Positions 1,108 through 27,065 of a stretch of DNA of 34,511 nucleotides are shown piece after piece. Source of the stretch: Candidatus Eiseniibacteriota bacterium (GTDB lineage Bacteria; Arandabacterota; Arandabacteria; JAGLYR01). The stretch covers positions 1 through 34,511 of the forward strand of contig JAGLYR010000176.1 of assembly GCA_023132135.1 (NCBI GenBank), given 5' to 3'. The notes beneath the pieces are model-generated. The model ran no database searches and was not told the DNA's origin. It saw only the letters and a list, made by a program, of their open reading frames with translations. How positions within the stretch are numbered: the first letter of the stretch is position 1; each line of letters starts with the position of its first letter. Both the position numbers and the translations under genes were made by a program.

Positions 1108-1180
1108 TGCAATCGTGCGATTCCCTGGACCACGAAGATTTCCCCGGAATCTACCGTAGGGGCGACCCGGTGGGTCGCCC
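1108..1180 (+). repeat. Direct repeat copy 2 carrying the same hairpin
   Basis: Near-identical to 953..1025. Confidence 0.85.
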
Positions 1181-1272: not shown

Positions 1273-1911
1273 GTGCAATACGACCCAAAGAAACATCATA
1301 GGAGATCGATCCGCCTGCCTGAATGGGACTATGTGCAACAGGGTGCGTATTTCGTCACCATCTGCGCGCACGATAAGCGATGCATGTTTGGGGAGATCGT
1401 TTCCGGGATGATGTGGTTGAGCAAGTGCGGCGCCATTGTCCAAGAACAGTGGATTCGCACGGGGGCCGTCCGGGACAACGTGGAACTCGACGCGTTCGTA
1501 GTTATGCCCAACCATCTTCACGGCATAGTTGTGTTGAACGACCCGCGGGTTCCCGTAGGGGCGACCCGGTGGGTCGCCCGGAATGCCATTGGCCCGCCGG
1601 TGCAAAGCTGGGCGACCCACCGGGTCGCCCCTACGGGTCCGGATCGGATCCGGGCCGCTGGCCCAGAGCATGGTTCGCTTGGTGCAATTATCGGGCAGTT
1701 CAAACCTGCGGCTACGAGGGCCATCAACAGACTGCGTCACACACCAGGCGGACTTGTATGGCAACGGAACTACTACGAACACGTCATTCGTGATGAAGAA
1801 GAGTTCAATCGTATCCGCCAGTACATCTTCGACAACCCGCTCGAATGGGATCTCGATCCAGAAAACCCCGAGGGACATTGGAGAAAGCGGAAAGAGAAAT
1901 GGCAGGTGTGA
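1273..1911 (+). CDS. REP-associated tyrosine transposase (RAYT)/IS200-like Y1 transposase
   Basis: VQYDPKKHHRRSIRLPEWDYVQQGAYFVTICAHDK...VVMPNHLHGIVVL...IGQFKPAATRAINR...VWQRNYYEHVIRDEEEFNRIRQYIFDNPLEW. HxH motif in NHLHG, typical RAYT N-terminus. GTG start preceded by GGAGG (about 1262-1266). Confidence 0.88.
   Translation: MQYDPKKHHRRSIRLPEWDYVQQGAYFVTICAHDKRCMFGEIVSGMMWLSKCGAIVQEQWIRTGAVRDNVELDAFVVMPNHLHGIVVLNDPRVPVGATRWVARNAIGPPVQSWATHRVAPTGPDRIRAAGPEHGSLGAIIGQFKPAATRAINRLRHTPGGLVWQRNYYEHVIRDEEEFNRIRQYIFDNPLEWDLDPENPEGHWRKRKEKWQV
1555..1634 (+). repeat. Paired hairpin repeat (two GTAGGGGCGACCCGGTGGGTCGCCC arms in inverted orientation) inside the RAYT coding sequence
   Basis: gtaggggcgacccggtgggtcgcccggaatgccattggcc...gggcgacccaccgggtcgcccctac; translates in frame as VGATRWVARNAIGPPVQSWATHRVAPT. 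Confidence 0.9.
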
Positions 1912-2028: not shown

Positions 2029-2106
2029 GTAGGGGCGACCCGGTGGGTCGCCCGGAATGCCATTGGCCGGCTGGGCAAAGGCGGGCGACCCACCGGGTCG
2101 CCCCTA
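2029..2106 (+). repeat. Paired hairpin repeat downstream of the RAYT gene, same family
   Basis: gtaggggcgacccggtgggtcgcccggaatgccattggccggctgggcaaaggcgggcgacccaccgggtcgcccctac. Confidence 0.9.
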
Positions 2107-2126
2107 CAGTGTCAGTCGTTTCCGGG

Positions 2127-3881: not shown

Positions 3882-4931
3882 TCACGCTGTCACACGGATT
3901 GTGCCGGCCGGTCCGTCGCTGATTGTGCCGATCTCGGCAATGGTGTCGACCCCGGCCGCGGCCAGCTTTTCCGCAAGCAGGTCGCCTTTGTCGGGGTCAA
4001 CCGGGATCAGGAGTCCTCCCGAGGTCTGCGCGTCCGCGAGGAGAATGCGGGCCGTCTCGTCCACTTCAGCCGCGAACTCAACACGGGACTCCACGAAACG
4101 CAGATTGCTTTTGCTTCCCCCCGGGATGGCGCCCCTGGCGGCGAACCGTCGGGCGGCAGGCAGGATGGGAACATTGGAGGCGGCAATGATGGCCGACACG
4201 CCGGACGCGACGAGCATTTCTTGCAGGTGGCCAAGGAGACCGAATCCGGTAACGTCCGTACAAGCGCGAACTCCAACTTCGACCATTGCCCGGGAAGCCG
4301 CTCGATTCAGTGTGGCCATGAGTGAGACAATTTCGTTGATGTCGGAATCGCCGACCAGATTCCCCTTGATTGCAGTGGTGATGATTCCGGAGCCAAGGGG
4401 CTTGGTGAGGAACAGGCGATTGCCCGGGTGTGCGCCGGCGTTGGTGATGATGCGGTCGGGATGGATGAGTCCGGTTACAGACAGACCGTACTTCGGCTCG
4501 TTGTCCTTTATGGTGTGTCCGCCGAGGATGGCAACCCCCGCCTCGGTGGCCTTGTCCAGTCCCCCCCTCAGGATCTGGACGAGGACCTCAAGGGGAATCA
4601 TGTTTTCCGGGAATGCGATGACGTTGAGGGCCGTCACCGGACGGGCGCCCATGGCATAGACGTCGCTCAGCGCGTTGGCCGCGGCAACCAACCCGAACGA
4701 ATAGGGATCGTCGACCATGGGTGTAAAAAAGTCCACGGTCTGGACCAGGGCCAGATCGTCCCGGACCTTGTAGACCCCTGCATCATCCGCGGTGTTCGAC
4801 CCGACCAGAACGTCCGGGTATTCCGGGATGTGCAGCTGCTTCAGCACTGCTTGCAAGCCCTCCGGGCTCATCTTGCAGGCTCACCCCGCGCCGCTGGAAT
4901 AGCCGGTGAGGCGAATGGGATCGTCCGTCAC
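3882..4931 (-). CDS. selD: Selenide, water dikinase with in-frame TGA (Sec) at 4881..4883
   Basis: ORF 3882..4871(-) is SelD-like (VGSNTADDAGVYK...TVDFFTPMVDDPYSFG...TGFGLLGHLQEML...QTSGGLLIPV). Upstream in-frame translation reads VTDDPIRLTGYSSGAG-U-ACKMSPEGL, aligning with E. coli SelD [20 protein letters not shown]. Proposed GTG start at 4931 with AAGGG upstream. Confidence 0.88.
4849..4880 (-). promoter_or_regulatory. Candidate bacterial SECIS stem-loop immediately 3' of the TGA
   Basis: GCCTGCAAG-ATGAGCCCGGAGGG-CTTGCAAGC: 8 of 9 stem pairs plus a possible inner GCCC-GGA-GGGC. Hand-folded only. Confidence 0.5.
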
Positions 4932-5022
4932 AACGCTGGCCCTTCATCGGAATCCGCTTGTGTCTCGACAACTGACCTTTCAGTATCCGGTTTCCCGGCG
5001 GAAGCGTCAAGGCAAAGTGGGG

Positions 5023-5098
5023 TACGAAGCACGAAGCACACGGCGCGGGCCCCCGCCTTTTGCGCTTTACGTCCTGGGTCTTGTGTGCTACGTGATGC
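5023..5098 (+). repeat. Heptanucleotide arrays in inverted arrangement: (CACGAAG)~3 at 5023..5043 and degenerate (GTNNTNN)5 at 5064..5098
   Basis: TACGAAG CACGAAG CACACGG, then GCTTTAC GTCCTGG GTCTTGT GTGCTAC GTGATGC; GC-rich palindromic centre GCGGGCCCCCGC. Confidence 0.6.
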
Positions 5099-9543: not shown

Positions 9544-9578
9544 GTGCTTCGTGCTACGTGCCCCGTGCTTCGTGCAGG
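9544..9578 (+). repeat. Heptanucleotide array, 5 units (GTGCTTC GTGCTAC GTGCCCC GTGCTTC GTGCAGG)
   Basis: Direct reading; unit GTGCTNC. Confidence 0.88.
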
Positions 9579-9595
9579 GAGAAGAGCATTGGAAC

Positions 9596-9630
9596 AAGTC
9601 CCTAGTGCGTAGTCCCTAGTCCCTAGTCCA
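9596..9630 (+). repeat. Heptanucleotide array, 5 units (AAGTCCC TAGTGCG TAGTCCC TAGTCCC TAGTCCA)
   Basis: Direct reading; unit TAGTCCC. Part of an 83-bp dispersed repeat (9565..9647 = 26856..26938). Confidence 0.92.
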
Positions 9631-9663
9631 AGGAAAAGGGCATTGGAGGGGGCGGCTCAATGC

Positions 9664-15827: not shown

Positions 15828-15895
15828 TAGCCTGGATTATTCATGAATCCCTGCTGCGACACTCTCGCGACGGGATTCCTGAATAACCCAGGCTA
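15828..15895. repeat. Palindromic MITE-like element, long form (68 bp)
   Basis: TAGCCTGGATTATTCATGAATCCC ... GGGATTCCTGAATAACCCAGGCTA. Confidence 0.9.
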
Positions 15896-20324: not shown

Positions 20325-21379
20325 GACGCACCCCCGCCCGGAAGCATTCCCCACTTCTCCAGGGTTTCCGTGAGCCTGGCCGCGATCTGATCCCAACTGA
20401 AGGGCATGATCTGCTCGCGGGTGGACACGATGATCTTCCTTCTCACGTTTTCCAGGAGAGCAGGGATTTCCGTCACCTCGTCAAAGTACCAGATTCCCCC
20501 TCCTTCTGGAAAGTGGATAGGGAGAGCGCCGAATCGTGTGCTCAGGACGGGCAGGTTCGTGGCCATCGCTTCCAGAACGGAGAGGGGCATCTCCATGGCA
20601 GCCTGGTCCGAGTTGACCGGAAAAAGGTAGCAATCAGCGGCTTGGTAGTAATGCTCGATATCAGGAATCCGTTTCCGGATGACCATGGCCCCGGCCTGCT
20701 CCAGCTCGGCGGCCAGATCGTCATCCTGTTCGGTTGATGTACTTCCGATGAGGATCGGGCGGCAGGACGGTTCCTCGCAGAGCGCGCTCATGAAGGCGAC
20801 GTTTCTCTGCCTTCGGATATGGCCCACGTGGAGTACAGCGAAATCAGGTTCTTCCAGCCCAATGGAGCGGCGGAGCCACAACCTCTCCTGCGGACGCACG
20901 GGTTTGAACCGGTCGGTATCCACGCCGCTGGGAAGTGTGCCTTTGGGGATGTTGTCGGGACCGTCCGAAATGGAGGAGGAGTCCTGCGCCAGGAGCGCGT
21001 CCGGATGGAACCTCTGCATGATCTTGTAATCCAGCGACCCGTGGCGGCGGGGCTGGAGAGCCAGCATGACCACTGGAGCCCGGGAATACAGGCGCCCGAG
21101 TACCCACGATCGCAGGTATGATCCGACAGTGGAAGATGCCAGCGGGACATAGAGGACAACATCGGGCGAGTGTTGAGCGATCGTCCGCCTGAGTTTCCTG
21201 CTGAGGAGCAGGCGGTTTGTCTTCACTCCCCCCGGTGTGCGGGCGCCCGTGTCCAGGCCGATGGCGCGCACATCGTGTTCCCTGCCGAGGGCCTCGGAGA
21301 GAGCAAACACGAAGTTCCTCATGCCCTCGTCCTGAGTCCCGCCCAGTCCCTCGGACAACACGCAGATCTTCTGCCTCAC
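20321..21379 (-). CDS. GT4-like glycosyltransferase
   Basis: GLGGTQDEGMRNFVFALSEALGREHDV...LHVGHIRRQRNVAFMSALC...ADCYLFPVNSDQAAMEMPLSVLEAMATNLPVLSTRFG. GTG start overlapping the previous stop (GTGA). Confidence 0.85.
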   Translation of the reverse strand: MRQKICVLSEGLGGTQDEGMRNFVFALSEALGREHDVRAIGLDTGARTPGGVKTNRLLLSRKLRRTIAQHSPDVVLYVPLASSTVGSYLRSWVLGRLYSRAPVVMLALQPRRHGSLDYKIMQRFHPDALLAQDSSSISDGPDNIPKGTLPSGVDTDRFKPVRPQERLWLRRSIGLEEPDFAVLHVGHIRRQRNVAFMSALCEEPSCRPILIGSTSTEQDDDLAAELEQAGAMVIRKRIPDIEHYYQAADCYLFPVNSDQAAMEMPLSVLEAMATNLPVLSTRFGALPIHFPEGGGIWYFDEVTEIPALLENVRRKIIVSTREQIMPFSWDQIAARLTETLEKWGMLPGGGAS

Positions 21380-22521
21380 GTCGCGGATCCTCCACCCTTT
21401 TCCGCCAGCAGTTGACGGTAGAACTGCTCGCGCCCGCGCACGGTTTTTTGGATGGAAAAGAGATCCTCAGCCCTGCTCCTTGCAGCTCGACCCATCCGCG
21501 TACGGAGCTCCGGGTCATCGAGAAGGCGAATGAGCGCCTCTGCCAGGGCGTCTGCATCGCCCACGTCGAACAGATAGCCCGTCTCCTGATGAGCGACAAT
21601 GTCGGAAAGAGCTCCGACCCTTGTGGTTACCGTTGGGTTGCCACACGCCATAGCTTCCAGGATCGAAATGGGGAAGGTTTCTCGAAACGGGTACGACGAA
21701 AGAACATTGATATCGGTGAGGCGGAGAAGGTCGGGAAGATCCCGGCGGCGGCCGAGGAAATGCACCGCATCGGCCAGCCCTTTCTTCTTCGTCATCTCTT
21801 CCAGTTTCTCTCGATCCGGCCCTTCTCCGATCACGATAAACGCGGCGTTGGGGTGCTTGTTGACTACGCGTGCGGCCGCGGTCAGAAAAACGTCGTGCCC
21901 CTTGTCCGGGTACAGCGAAGCAACGATAGCCACTACCGGGCTTCCTTCGGCGATGCCGAGAGCCTCCCTCAGATTCCCGGGGGGCGACCCTGGTGAAAAG
22001 GCGTCAACATCCACGCCGTTCCACAGAACCACAATCCTGTCCGGATCCAGTTGTTCCTGATGAATAAGGAGATCTCGATGTACGCTGGCCAGGGCGACAG
22101 TCCTGTCGATGCGACCCATGGAAATCCGGGCCGGCCACTCCACCAGGCGGGACCTGCCGACTCGAGCCGTCGCGTGGACAGACACGACCTTCACCGGGAC
22201 TTTCGCCAGATCGGCCGCCAGGGCGCCGAGGAACACCGTGTTCCGCTGCAGGTCTGTGTCCAGAACGGAGATGTTCTCCCTTCTCATGATGGATGCCAGC
22301 CGCAACAACCCGAAGGGATCCAGTTTCCATTTCTGGACCCGGGTGTGCACGGGGATTCCCGCGTCTAGGAACTCGGACTCCAGCGGGCCACCGCTCTTCA
22401 GGCACGCAATGACGGGACGGAAGGATTCCTTGTCCATCTCCCGAACAATAGACAGCAGGTGGGTCTCGAACCCTCCGACGGGCAGCGAGTTAGTGAGGAA
22501 AAGAACTCCGACTGGATCCAT
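21376..22521 (-). CDS. GT4-type glycosyltransferase, paralogue of the adjacent upstream gene
   Basis: MDPVGVLFLTNSLPVGGFETHLLSIVREMDKESF...NGVDVDAFSPGSPPGNLREALGI...ISILEAMACGNPTVTTRVGAL. ATG 22521 preferred over TTG 22530. Confidence 0.92.
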   Translation of the reverse strand: MDPVGVLFLTNSLPVGGFETHLLSIVREMDKESFRPVIACLKSGGPLESEFLDAGIPVHTRVQKWKLDPFGLLRLASIMRRENISVLDTDLQRNTVFLGALAADLAKVPVKVVSVHATARVGRSRLVEWPARISMGRIDRTVALASVHRDLLIHQEQLDPDRIVVLWNGVDVDAFSPGSPPGNLREALGIAEGSPVVAIVASLYPDKGHDVFLTAAARVVNKHPNAAFIVIGEGPDREKLEEMTKKKGLADAVHFLGRRRDLPDLLRLTDINVLSSYPFRETFPISILEAMACGNPTVTTRVGALSDIVAHQETGYLFDVGDADALAEALIRLLDDPELRTRMGRAARSRAEDLFSIQKTVRGREQFYRQLLAEKGGGSAT

Positions 22522-22526
22522 GTTTC

Positions 22527-23657
22527 TCAACTTTCCGTCTTCTGCTTCACGAGTTCCCGGTACACGTTTTCACGTCTGCGAGTGACCTTGTCCATACTGT
22601 AGGTCTCTTCGGCTCTTCGGCGGGAAGCCTCTCCCGTTTTTTTTCTCAGAGCCGGATTGCCCATAAGGCGGGCGATTGCCTGCGCCAACTCCGTACCGTC
22701 CCCGACGTCCACCAGGAACCCCGTTTCCCCATCCACCACCATTTCCGGCATCGCACCGACTCGGGTCGAGACCGTCGGAATCCCGCAGGCCATGGCCTCC
22801 AGGGCGGAGATGGGTGCGGCCTCCCAGTGGGAGGAGAGCACGTTCACATCGATAATCGTGAGAAGATCGGGCATGTCTCGCCTTCGGCCAAGGAAATGGA
22901 CCGCGCTGTCCAATCCCATCTCCCGCACCTGTGTCTCGAGATGCTCACGCTCCGGACCTTCCCCGATCACGAGAAAGTGCGCGTTCCGTTGCATCTCCAG
23001 AACCTTGGCCGCGGCCTCGAAGAACAGAGCGTGTCTCTTGAGCGGGAGGAGCGAAGCAACGATGGCGGCGACGGGCGAATCTCCCGGAATCCCCAATTCC
23101 TCACGGAGATCGGCCCTCGGTGCGCGCGGGCTGAACTGCTCCGTGTCCACTCCGTTGGGCAGCACGATGACCTTCTCCGGGTCCACTCTTTCCTCGTCGA
23201 CGAGCTGCTTCCGGTGATCCTCGAAAAGGGCAATGACTCGATCGATTCGTCCCATGACCATGCGCGCCGGCCATTCGATGATTCCCGGCCGTTCCACACG
23301 GACGACGAGGTGGACGGAGACAACTGCAGCGCGGACGCCGGCGACGCGGGCAGCGAGGGTTCCCAGCAGGATTGTGTTGCGCATGACATCCGTGTCGAGG
23401 AGATGGATTCGCTCCCTCTTCATGATCCGGACCAGTCTCACCAACCCCATGGGGTCCAGGCGGTGTCTCTGGAGACGTGTGTAGACCGGGATCCCGGTCG
23501 CGCGGAATTCCTCCTCCAGGGGGCCGCCATCTTTCAGGCAGCAGAGCACGGGGTGGAAGGATTCCTTGTCGAGTTTCCTGACAATGGAGAGGAGATGGGT
23601 CTCGAAACCGCCGACCGGGAGCCAGTTGGTGAGGAAGAGAATGCCGATCCTGTCCAT
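22527..23657 (-). CDS. GT4-type glycosyltransferase, paralogue of the adjacent downstream gene
   Basis: MDRIGILFLTNWLPVGGFETHLLSIVRKLDKESFHPVLCCLKDGGPL...NGVDTEQFSPRAPRADLREELGIPG...ISALEAMACGIPTVSTRVGAMPEMV. Confidence 0.92.
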   Translation of the reverse strand: MDRIGILFLTNWLPVGGFETHLLSIVRKLDKESFHPVLCCLKDGGPLEEEFRATGIPVYTRLQRHRLDPMGLVRLVRIMKRERIHLLDTDVMRNTILLGTLAARVAGVRAAVVSVHLVVRVERPGIIEWPARMVMGRIDRVIALFEDHRKQLVDEERVDPEKVIVLPNGVDTEQFSPRAPRADLREELGIPGDSPVAAIVASLLPLKRHALFFEAAAKVLEMQRNAHFLVIGEGPEREHLETQVREMGLDSAVHFLGRRRDMPDLLTIIDVNVLSSHWEAAPISALEAMACGIPTVSTRVGAMPEMVVDGETGFLVDVGDGTELAQAIARLMGNPALRKKTGEASRRRAEETYSMDKVTRRRENVYRELVKQKTES

Positions 23658-23683
23658 AGGGGGGATTCCTCTCCTGTCGCGGG

Positions 23684-25255
23684 CTAGAGATTGCCCTCGA
23701 TTTGCCACTCTATCCCCGTGACCTCGCTCGCGTCAATGATGGTGATGATTTCGGCCGAGTCGGGGTCGGCGGTTCCGGGGTAGTAGGAGTAGGTCCGGTC
23801 CTCGCCCACGTAGTAGCGCACACCAATGATCAAGTCTCCATCCGGCAACCCTGCAATCTCAAACGAGCCGTCGGACTCCGTTCGCCAATCGCCGGGGACA
23901 CTCCAGTCCGTGCTGATGCTGGTAATGAGGAGATCGACGTTCTCAACTCCCGCCCCGGTGGCATCGAAGACACGGCCCCGGATCACGCCGCCTTTCTCCA
24001 GTGTCACTTCGATATCCACGATCTCCCCGTCTTCGGCGACGATGATGGGTGTAGCGGTCTCCCGATTGGCGGCGCGGTCGTACCACTGGGGTCGCCACGC
24101 CTCACCGGCGTGCGGCAAGATGCTCAGGTAGTACGCACCCGGCTCCAAACCTGAGAAAGCAAAAACAACATCGTTTCGTAGGAAGTAGGAATCAAGAAAG
24201 TCGTCAGGCTCCCCACGATAGAGGCTCAAGTACGCCGAGGAAATTTCCCACAAGGCCGATTCCGCGACGTGACCGACAATGCAACTGAGAACGATAGGAT
24301 TGACGTCAATCACGATTCCGGATCCGACATGGAACAGCTCTGCCTCCTCGAAACTGCTCCCACCCACCCAACCAGAATGATCCCCGTGCCGGTACCAAAG
24401 ACAGACCTGTCCAGGAGCAAACATCGGAACTGCGAAGGCCCCCTGATGGTCGACACGCTGCCGGGCAGTGACTCTCTTCTCGATGTCGTAGACGTAGACC
24501 GACGGTGTCCGAAGACCCGCCTCAATCCAGCATCCCTGGACAATTCCCTGCAGGTAACCGGGGACCGGCAGGGCGCCGCGCCATAGTGTGGCCTCGCGGG
24601 CCCGGACAGTGAACGTGTCTGCATCCTCAACAACTAACGTGTGCTCAAGCCACATCAGCGATTCCGTGGAGGCATCATAGTATGGATTGACTTCGACGTG
24701 GATATTGTAGGTGCCGGGCGGTATGGTCGGGAACGAAAATGACAACGCGGGCGAATCCACGAAGCGAGTACCCCTGGCCACCCGGTTACCGCCGTCTATG
24801 CCATGCGCCGCACAGGTGATAGCCGCTCCTTCAAGTCCGGGAGGGACGTCCATCTCGATATCAAGCGCGCCCAGAACGAAATCGGCGGTAGCAACCGCTC
24901 CTCGTGTTACAGCCAACGTGTCCGCCTCTGCGCGGACGCATGTCGGTCCGAGGCCAGAGAACCACATGGGATATATCTCATATGAGGGCAGCGCCGAGAG
25001 GAGGTAGCTGCCTGCAGGGAGGGCAAAGACGAATCGTCCGGTAGAATCGCTCACCGTCTCGGCCCTGAGGCGATACCCGGGGGTCGCATCCACTGACTCG
25101 ACGTAGATTCTGCTTCCCACGACGGGGCCGTTGGCGCTCAGGATCCGGCCGACGATTCTGCCGTCGGCACACGGAGCGCAGGTGTTGTCGCCGTCGCAGC
25201 CGAGCAGGAGGCCTGCCAGCAGAAGGGCGGCGAACACACCCATATGACACTTCAT
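23684..25255 (-). CDS. Lipoprotein with carboxypeptidase regulatory-like / Ig-like repeats
   Basis: Lipobox LLLAGLLLGCDGD; repeats such as GRIVGRILSANGPVVGSRIYVESVD...DSTGRFVFALPAGSYLLSALP and GGVIRGRVFDATGAGVENVDLLITS...ESDGSFEIAGLPDGDLIIGV. Confidence 0.82.
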   Translation of the reverse strand: MKCHMGVFAALLLAGLLLGCDGDNTCAPCADGRIVGRILSANGPVVGSRIYVESVDATPGYRLRAETVSDSTGRFVFALPAGSYLLSALPSYEIYPMWFSGLGPTCVRAEADTLAVTRGAVATADFVLGALDIEMDVPPGLEGAAITCAAHGIDGGNRVARGTRFVDSPALSFSFPTIPPGTYNIHVEVNPYYDASTESLMWLEHTLVVEDADTFTVRAREATLWRGALPVPGYLQGIVQGCWIEAGLRTPSVYVYDIEKRVTARQRVDHQGAFAVPMFAPGQVCLWYRHGDHSGWVGGSSFEEAELFHVGSGIVIDVNPIVLSCIVGHVAESALWEISSAYLSLYRGEPDDFLDSYFLRNDVVFAFSGLEPGAYYLSILPHAGEAWRPQWYDRAANRETATPIIVAEDGEIVDIEVTLEKGGVIRGRVFDATGAGVENVDLLITSISTDWSVPGDWRTESDGSFEIAGLPDGDLIIGVRYYVGEDRTYSYYPGTADPDSAEIITIIDASEVTGIEWQIEGNL

Positions 25256-26806: not shown

Positions 26807-26855
26807 GCTCCTGCCGATCGACCAGCCTGCGTTTCTCGCCAGCGGCCGGAGGCCG

Positions 26856-26938
26856 GTGCTTCGTGCAGGGACAAGGGCATTGGAGCGAGTCCCTAGTGCG
26901 TAGTCCCTAGTCCCTAGTCCAAGGAAAAGGGCATTGGA
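26856..26938 (+). repeat. 83-bp dispersed repeat copy 2 (copy 1 at 9565..9647) containing a TAGTCCC heptamer array (26887..26921)
   Basis: gtgcttcgtgcaggga.aag.gcattgga.c.agtccctagtgcgtagtccctagtccctagtccaaggaaaagggcattgga, equal length in both copies, few mismatches. Confidence 0.92.
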
Positions 26939-27007: not shown

Positions 27008-27065
27008 TAGCCTGGGTTATTCAGGAATCCCGTCGCGAGCAGGGATTCATGAATAACCCAGGCTA
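27008..27065. repeat. Palindromic MITE-like element, short form (58 bp), opposite orientation to 15828..15895
   Basis: TAGCCTGGGTTATTCAGGAATCCC-GTCGCGAGCA-GGGATTCATGAATAACCCAGGCTA; arms differ by one base. Confidence 0.92.

Follow-up and report, generated by a model that had tools for sequence, protein, structure and literature searches.

A RAYT gene with a copy of its host's REPIN inside the coding sequence

The RAYT gene and its surroundings

The window, that is, the whole 34,511-nt stretch of DNA that was analysed, contains a RAYT (REP-associated tyrosine transposase, TnpA-REP) gene at positions 1273–1911 of the forward strand, whose translation is intact and comprises a GTG start and 212 codons plus a stop. 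The first ATG of the open reading frame lies at 922, but the most likely start of the gene is GTG 1273, the codon at which homology to other RAYTs begins. In the HUH motif MPNHLH (1504–1521, forward strand; residues 78–83, with NHLH at 80–83), M78, P79, N80, H81 and H83 are invariant across 10 aligned RAYTs. The presumed catalytic residue, Tyr184 of YIFDNP (1822–1824, forward strand), does not vary among 10 RAYTs and hardly varies among 55, and the WQ motif that precedes the Y helix (W163 and Q164) is invariant in 55.

The protein matches NCBIfam entry NF047646 (REP_Tyr_transpos) with an E-value of 8.5e-19 and 67.9 bits, under the curated cut-off of 80, which is an annotation rule and no biological definition; the match is divided into two stretches by a long insert. 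The match to Pfam Y1_Tnp is weak. The AlphaFold model has a pLDDT of at least 90 for 130 of the 212 residues, with an HUH strand at residues 81–88, helix C at 136–155 and Tyr184 on a helix spanning 175–194. Its best fold match in the PDB is entry 4er8, a RAYT bound to a REP hairpin (E-value of 1.9e-7 and TM-score (target) of 0.63), and the same entry is the sole match of a PDB sequence search (E-value of 0.0024). The motifs, the family match and the predicted fold support what a sequence-only reading of this DNA had proposed, namely that the gene encodes a RAYT, with a Y1 HUH fold comprising the HUH motif and a single presumed catalytic tyrosine.

REPs belonging to one genomic family flank the gene on both sides. 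Upstream lie a REP at 1001–1025 and another at 1156–1180 (both forward strand), the latter 92 nt from the GTG start and within the second copy (1103–1185) of an 83-nt direct repeat whose first copy is at 948–1030; with these two REPs upstream, the locus is arranged as the REPtron of the literature. Downstream of the stop codon is a REPIN of 79 nt (2029–2107, forward strand). The DNA 5' of the gene also contains duplicated blocks, one pair at 1–55 and 1040–1094 (55 nt, 93% identical) and the other being the 83-nt repeat (88% identical), each block of which ends with a REP.

Rfam and tRNA scans across the window returned nothing. Elsewhere, a selD-like gene (selenophosphate synthetase) is located at 3882–5033 of the reverse strand, and its reading frame stays open 5' of the first ATG except for one in-frame TGA (about 4881–4883, residue 51). 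The context of this TGA, SGAG-U-ACK, resembles that of selenoprotein SelD, and the codon, as read from the motif, may specify selenocysteine. Two adjacent, overlapping and similar glycosyltransferase-like open reading frames at 21376–22530 and 22527–23708 (reverse strand) apparently arose by tandem duplication.

The intragenic REPIN and its genomic family

Positions 1555–1634 (forward strand) form a REPIN of 80 nt, composed of two complete 25-nt REPs in inverted order around a 30-nt spacer. Arm 1, GTAGGGGCGACCCGGTGGGTCGCCC (1555–1579, forward strand), comprises an unpaired GTAG foot, a 9-bp stem and a 3-nt loop; the spacer occupies 1580–1609 (forward strand), and arm 2 (1610–1634, reverse strand) is the 25-mer of arm 1 on the opposite strand. 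The perfect inverted arms reach 28 nt (1552–1579 and 1610–1637, with 30 nt between them). The sequence-only reading had placed an 80-nt paired hairpin within the RAYT frame at exactly these positions, and both its position and the intact frame hold. Its description is adjusted, because each arm forms its own hairpin with an unpaired GTAG foot and the unit is therefore a REPIN. Folded as single-stranded DNA, 1552–1637 reaches −45.2 kcal/mol (z = −9.5 against dinucleotide shuffles), compared with z = +0.7 for a control stretch of the same gene. The REPIN encodes VGATRWVARNAIGPPVQSWATHRVAPT, corresponding to residues 95–121 between NHLH and GAIIGQFK, and leaves the frame of 212 codons unbroken. 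It is free of stop codons in four of the six frames, and the remaining two start with TAG.

The host genome, a 3.4-Mb draft in 345 contigs, contains 42 matches to the 25-nt arm with up to three mismatches, against none for the arm read backwards, and no copies occur in seven genomes of the same class, in which no RAYT was found at an E-value of 0.001. The whole arm–spacer–arm unit is present at three further genomic loci, 91–94% identical to the intragenic REPIN; the downstream REPIN at 2029–2107, whose spacer is nearly that of the intragenic one, is among these three close copies. These matches bear out the proposal that the insert is a copy of the host genome's own REP repeat. In the three close copies the spacer measures 29 nt and the unit 79 nt, compared with 30 nt and 80 nt inside the gene, where the spacer also carries private changes. 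The difference of one nucleotide suggests frame keeping; to be called compensatory it would require an empty site. Many of the REP copies in the host genome lie within mechanically called open reading frames, which may not be genes, or near the ends of long ones.

Other repeats accompany this family. Several REP and REPIN copies (L014, L018, L012, L020 and L027 of genome G000) have the flank TGGTCAGAGCATAGTCCC in common on one side, and the REP may accordingly belong to a larger composite repeat or favour a particular target. A second palindromic repeat, AGCCTGGGTTATTCATGAATCCC, is found between genes in inverted pairs at 15828–15895 and 27008–27065 (four matches against none expected), and similar pieces flank REP copies elsewhere in the host genome. 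An intergenic direct repeat of 86 nt (9562–9647 and 26853–26938, 94% identical) is made of GTCCCTAGTCCC-like units, and tracts of this kind adjoin several REP copies of the host genome.

In the predicted structure, the insert (residues 95–121) falls inside a low-confidence loop of an otherwise confident HUH model. This variable β3–αC loop (1549–1677, forward strand; residues 93–135) has no regular secondary structure and a pLDDT of about 45–63, and is located between the strand at 81–88 and the helix at 136–155. The low pLDDT fits a flexible loop, without being proof of one; the structure model that the sequence-only reading had called for places the insert in a predicted flexible loop between β3 and helix C.

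Loops of related RAYTs

RAYTs of this type were gathered from diverse genomes and yielded 99 distinct loops. The query alignment used for sampling consisted mostly of RAYTs with such loops, and the proportions below hold for this sample rather than for all RAYTs. A GTAG-type foot (GT[AG]GGGGC or its complement) is present in 82 of the 99 loops. An inverted repeat of at least 12 nt, with one mismatch allowed, is found in 74 of them, compared with 5 and 1 in stretches of equal length on either side and a mean of none in codon-shuffled loops. At 22 of 75 loci the 8-nt core next to the foot is identical in all eight positions to that of a flanking REP within 3 kb; the permuted mean is 1.1 and the maximum 5, far below this count, so the loop often carries the local REP. 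Two loops contain arrays of REP-derived units, one with five GTAGGGGC feet (L117) and one with a repeated KPAPT (L034), which indicates that a RAYT loop can grow by repeat expansion. Neither an empty site nor a close orthologue was found for the RAYT of the window (best identity about 55–60%), for which reason we infer the insertion event and the exact ends of the insert from the sequences compared here; the RAYT is the presumed mover of the REP.

The sequence-only reading had named one sign that the segment would be native protein sequence, its presence in homologues that lack the nucleotide repeat. Among the homologues gathered, the segment instead varies together with the local REP family, and relatives bear different REPs at the equivalent loop site, which argues against native sequence. 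That the segment is native and palindromic by chance, or is an assembly artefact joining repeat copies, is scarcely credible. A multi-copy repeat in a draft of 345 contigs invites such an artefact; against it, the intragenic copy keeps the frame and has its own 30-nt spacer with its private changes, and the internal-REP architecture recurs in single-contig genomes (G148, G351 and the gamma proteobacterium HdN1). A function of the encoded peptide, with the VGATRW...THRVAPT stretch serving as a selected linker or interaction motif, is very unlikely. Consistent with such a function, this gene and almost all relatives retain the frame, and peptides of the VGATRRVAPT type recur in several RAYT loops. 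The segment is, however, predicted to be unstructured, and among 60 foot-to-foot palindromes from 131 RAYT genes the forward foot occupies phase 0 in 32 cases and phase 1 in 28, and never phase 2, which would place TAG in frame. Four palindrome cores are present in both phases and encode unrelated peptides, for example VGAYGHTPL and RGVWPYAPT. With both open frames used about equally, and four palindromes in both, the peptide looks incidental, and the emphasis that the sequence-only reading had laid on a peptide linker is not borne out. Its idea that self-insertion could tune or report on transposase activity likewise drew no support from the analysis.

Codon conservation also goes beyond the residue. 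Gene pairs with equal palindrome length and phase were compared at codons of at least fourfold degeneracy that specify the same residue; the pairs are non-independent, and no significance is attached to the counts. Core codons are identical in 186 of 266 cases at 45–55% rest-of-gene identity (28% elsewhere in the gene) and in 170 of 206 at 55–65% (31% elsewhere). Because 70–83% of core codons are identical, compared with 28–31% elsewhere, the comparison suggests that it is as DNA, and not for its encoded peptide, that the hairpin is conserved or renewed. A count of independent insertions was attempted from a tree, in which parsimony gives 17 frame changes; only 5 of the 92 inner branches are well supported, and the count was not relied on.

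Origin and persistence of the hairpin, and known systems

With high probability, this RAYT belongs to subclass 2.4 and carries in its β3–αC loop a complete copy of the REPIN of its host, with the hairpin persisting as DNA and the peptide a by-product. The REPIN would have been put into the loop, or would have replaced an older REP there, either through single-strand movement mediated by the RAYT or through recombination with a copy in the vicinity. The insert would have survived because the element is stop-free in two of the three frames on either strand and the loop appears to tolerate almost any sequence. Across the subclass, the hairpin would then persist at the loop site through renewal from other copies or through constraint at the DNA level. 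There is good support for the insertion, for the family it belongs to and for its being tolerated.

A further reading goes beyond this account to the reason for the persistence and takes the hairpin to be a functional cis-element that selection maintains at the level of DNA or mRNA, perhaps as a site where the RAYT binds to regulate its own gene, or as a portable substrate that can found a REP population in a new host. We consider this reading plausible, although on balance improbable. It is favoured by identical 28-nt palindromes in RAYTs with 45–65% identity over the rest of the gene, at which distance synonymous sites are saturated, and by the distribution of palindromes in low-copy RAYT genomes. 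In all, 386 genomes were searched with the strict double-foot pattern GTAGGGGC-N8-16-GCCCCTAC. A RAYT is present in 64 of these genomes at an E-value of 1e-40, the pattern occurs at least once in 75, and 45 have both (odds ratio of 23, p = 8e-24, with kinship ignored); the reversed pattern shows no association with RAYT across the same 386 genomes. In 31 low-copy RAYT genomes, RAYT genes contain 21 of the 65 perfect palindromes, where their length would lead one to expect 0.03, and eight of these genomes have all their perfect double-foot palindromes there. The intragenic palindrome is the only genomic copy, even with up to three mismatches allowed, in three of the eight (G148, G184 and G036); a fourth (G232) has imperfect or single-foot copies elsewhere, and the other four were counted for perfect palindromes only. 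Intragenic presence is independent of extragenic copies (8/27 versus 15/37, p = 0.44), in a weak test that is small and takes only strict double-foot forms as extragenic.

The perfect palindromes retained in genomes without other copies count against the preferred account of an inserted and persisting REPIN, in that renewal from donors is no simple explanation for them. Recent transfer of the gene together with its hairpin, or the loss of donor copies, would nevertheless look the same as selection. Moreover, a recognisable foot is missing from about a fifth of the loops, and imperfect palindromes are numerous; the hairpin is therefore not indispensable. Between a renewed passenger and a selected element, the passenger view is somewhat ahead. 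The general proposition that the intragenic REP of subclass 2.4 is a selected DNA element rather than a peptide or a passenger, acting as the gene's own substrate or as a regulatory site in the coding sequence and kept even without other genomic copies, is offered tentatively and is rather doubtful; were it true, a gene of this subclass would bring with it, on transfer to another host, either the seed of a new REP population or a control site of its own.

How REP families arise and spread, and what keeps each of them matched to a single RAYT, is an open problem. A repeat inside the gene of its presumed mover, apparently conserved at the DNA level in whichever open frame it is read and in some genomes the sole copy, offers a concrete test object, as synonymous changes can break the hairpin while leaving the protein unchanged. 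In the parts of the literature examined, in a search that was non-exhaustive, no description was found of the frame balance, the codon conservation or the RAYT-only palindromes.

Within its subclass, the finding in the window, taken alone, is nothing out of the ordinary. For TnpA-Y1 subclass 2.4, which corresponds to Bertels group 4, REPs lying in frame within the RAYT gene were described by Quentin et al. 2018 (PMC6006769), and in the parts of that paper considered here they are usual in the subclass, known since 2018, and not peculiar to the gene at 1273–1911. Judged by its WQ motif, a criterion from Table 1 of that paper, and by its insert, the gene fits subclass 2.4. It shares with the subclass, as characterized in those parts, the WQ motif, the variable β3–αC insert and the in-frame REP within the gene; the insert here is a full REPIN with a spacer, whereas a single or double-foot REP is described there. 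The motifs NHLH and YIFDNP each differ by one residue from the listed consensus (NH[IFV]H and YIxNNP), and NHLH is likewise found in close relatives that share the insert.

The locus also shares the hallmarks of REPINs and REPtrons (Bertels and Rainey 2011, PMC3116915; Nunvar et al. 2010, PMC2817692), with a spacer between two REPs in inverted order, REPs to either side of the RAYT gene, and a single RAYT in the genome together with a REP family of its own. The REPs described in those papers are extragenic, whereas here one unit is also inside the RAYT coding sequence. The sections of Di Nocera et al. 2013 (PMC3733652) drawn on here deal with GTAG REPs, their proximity to RAYT genes and the many genes that have REPs inside them. 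The REPs of this GTAG superfamily likewise have GTAG at one end of the stem-loop, form inverted dimers and occur in frame inside open reading frames; in those sections, however, the intragenic copies are in repair, replication and other genes and are not a regular part of a RAYT gene. The Rickettsia palindromic elements (RPE), as cited in the same sections, are also palindromic repeats located in frame in protein genes, but they end with CGTC and reside in many unrelated genes, whereas here the gene that hosts the repeat encodes its presumed mover.
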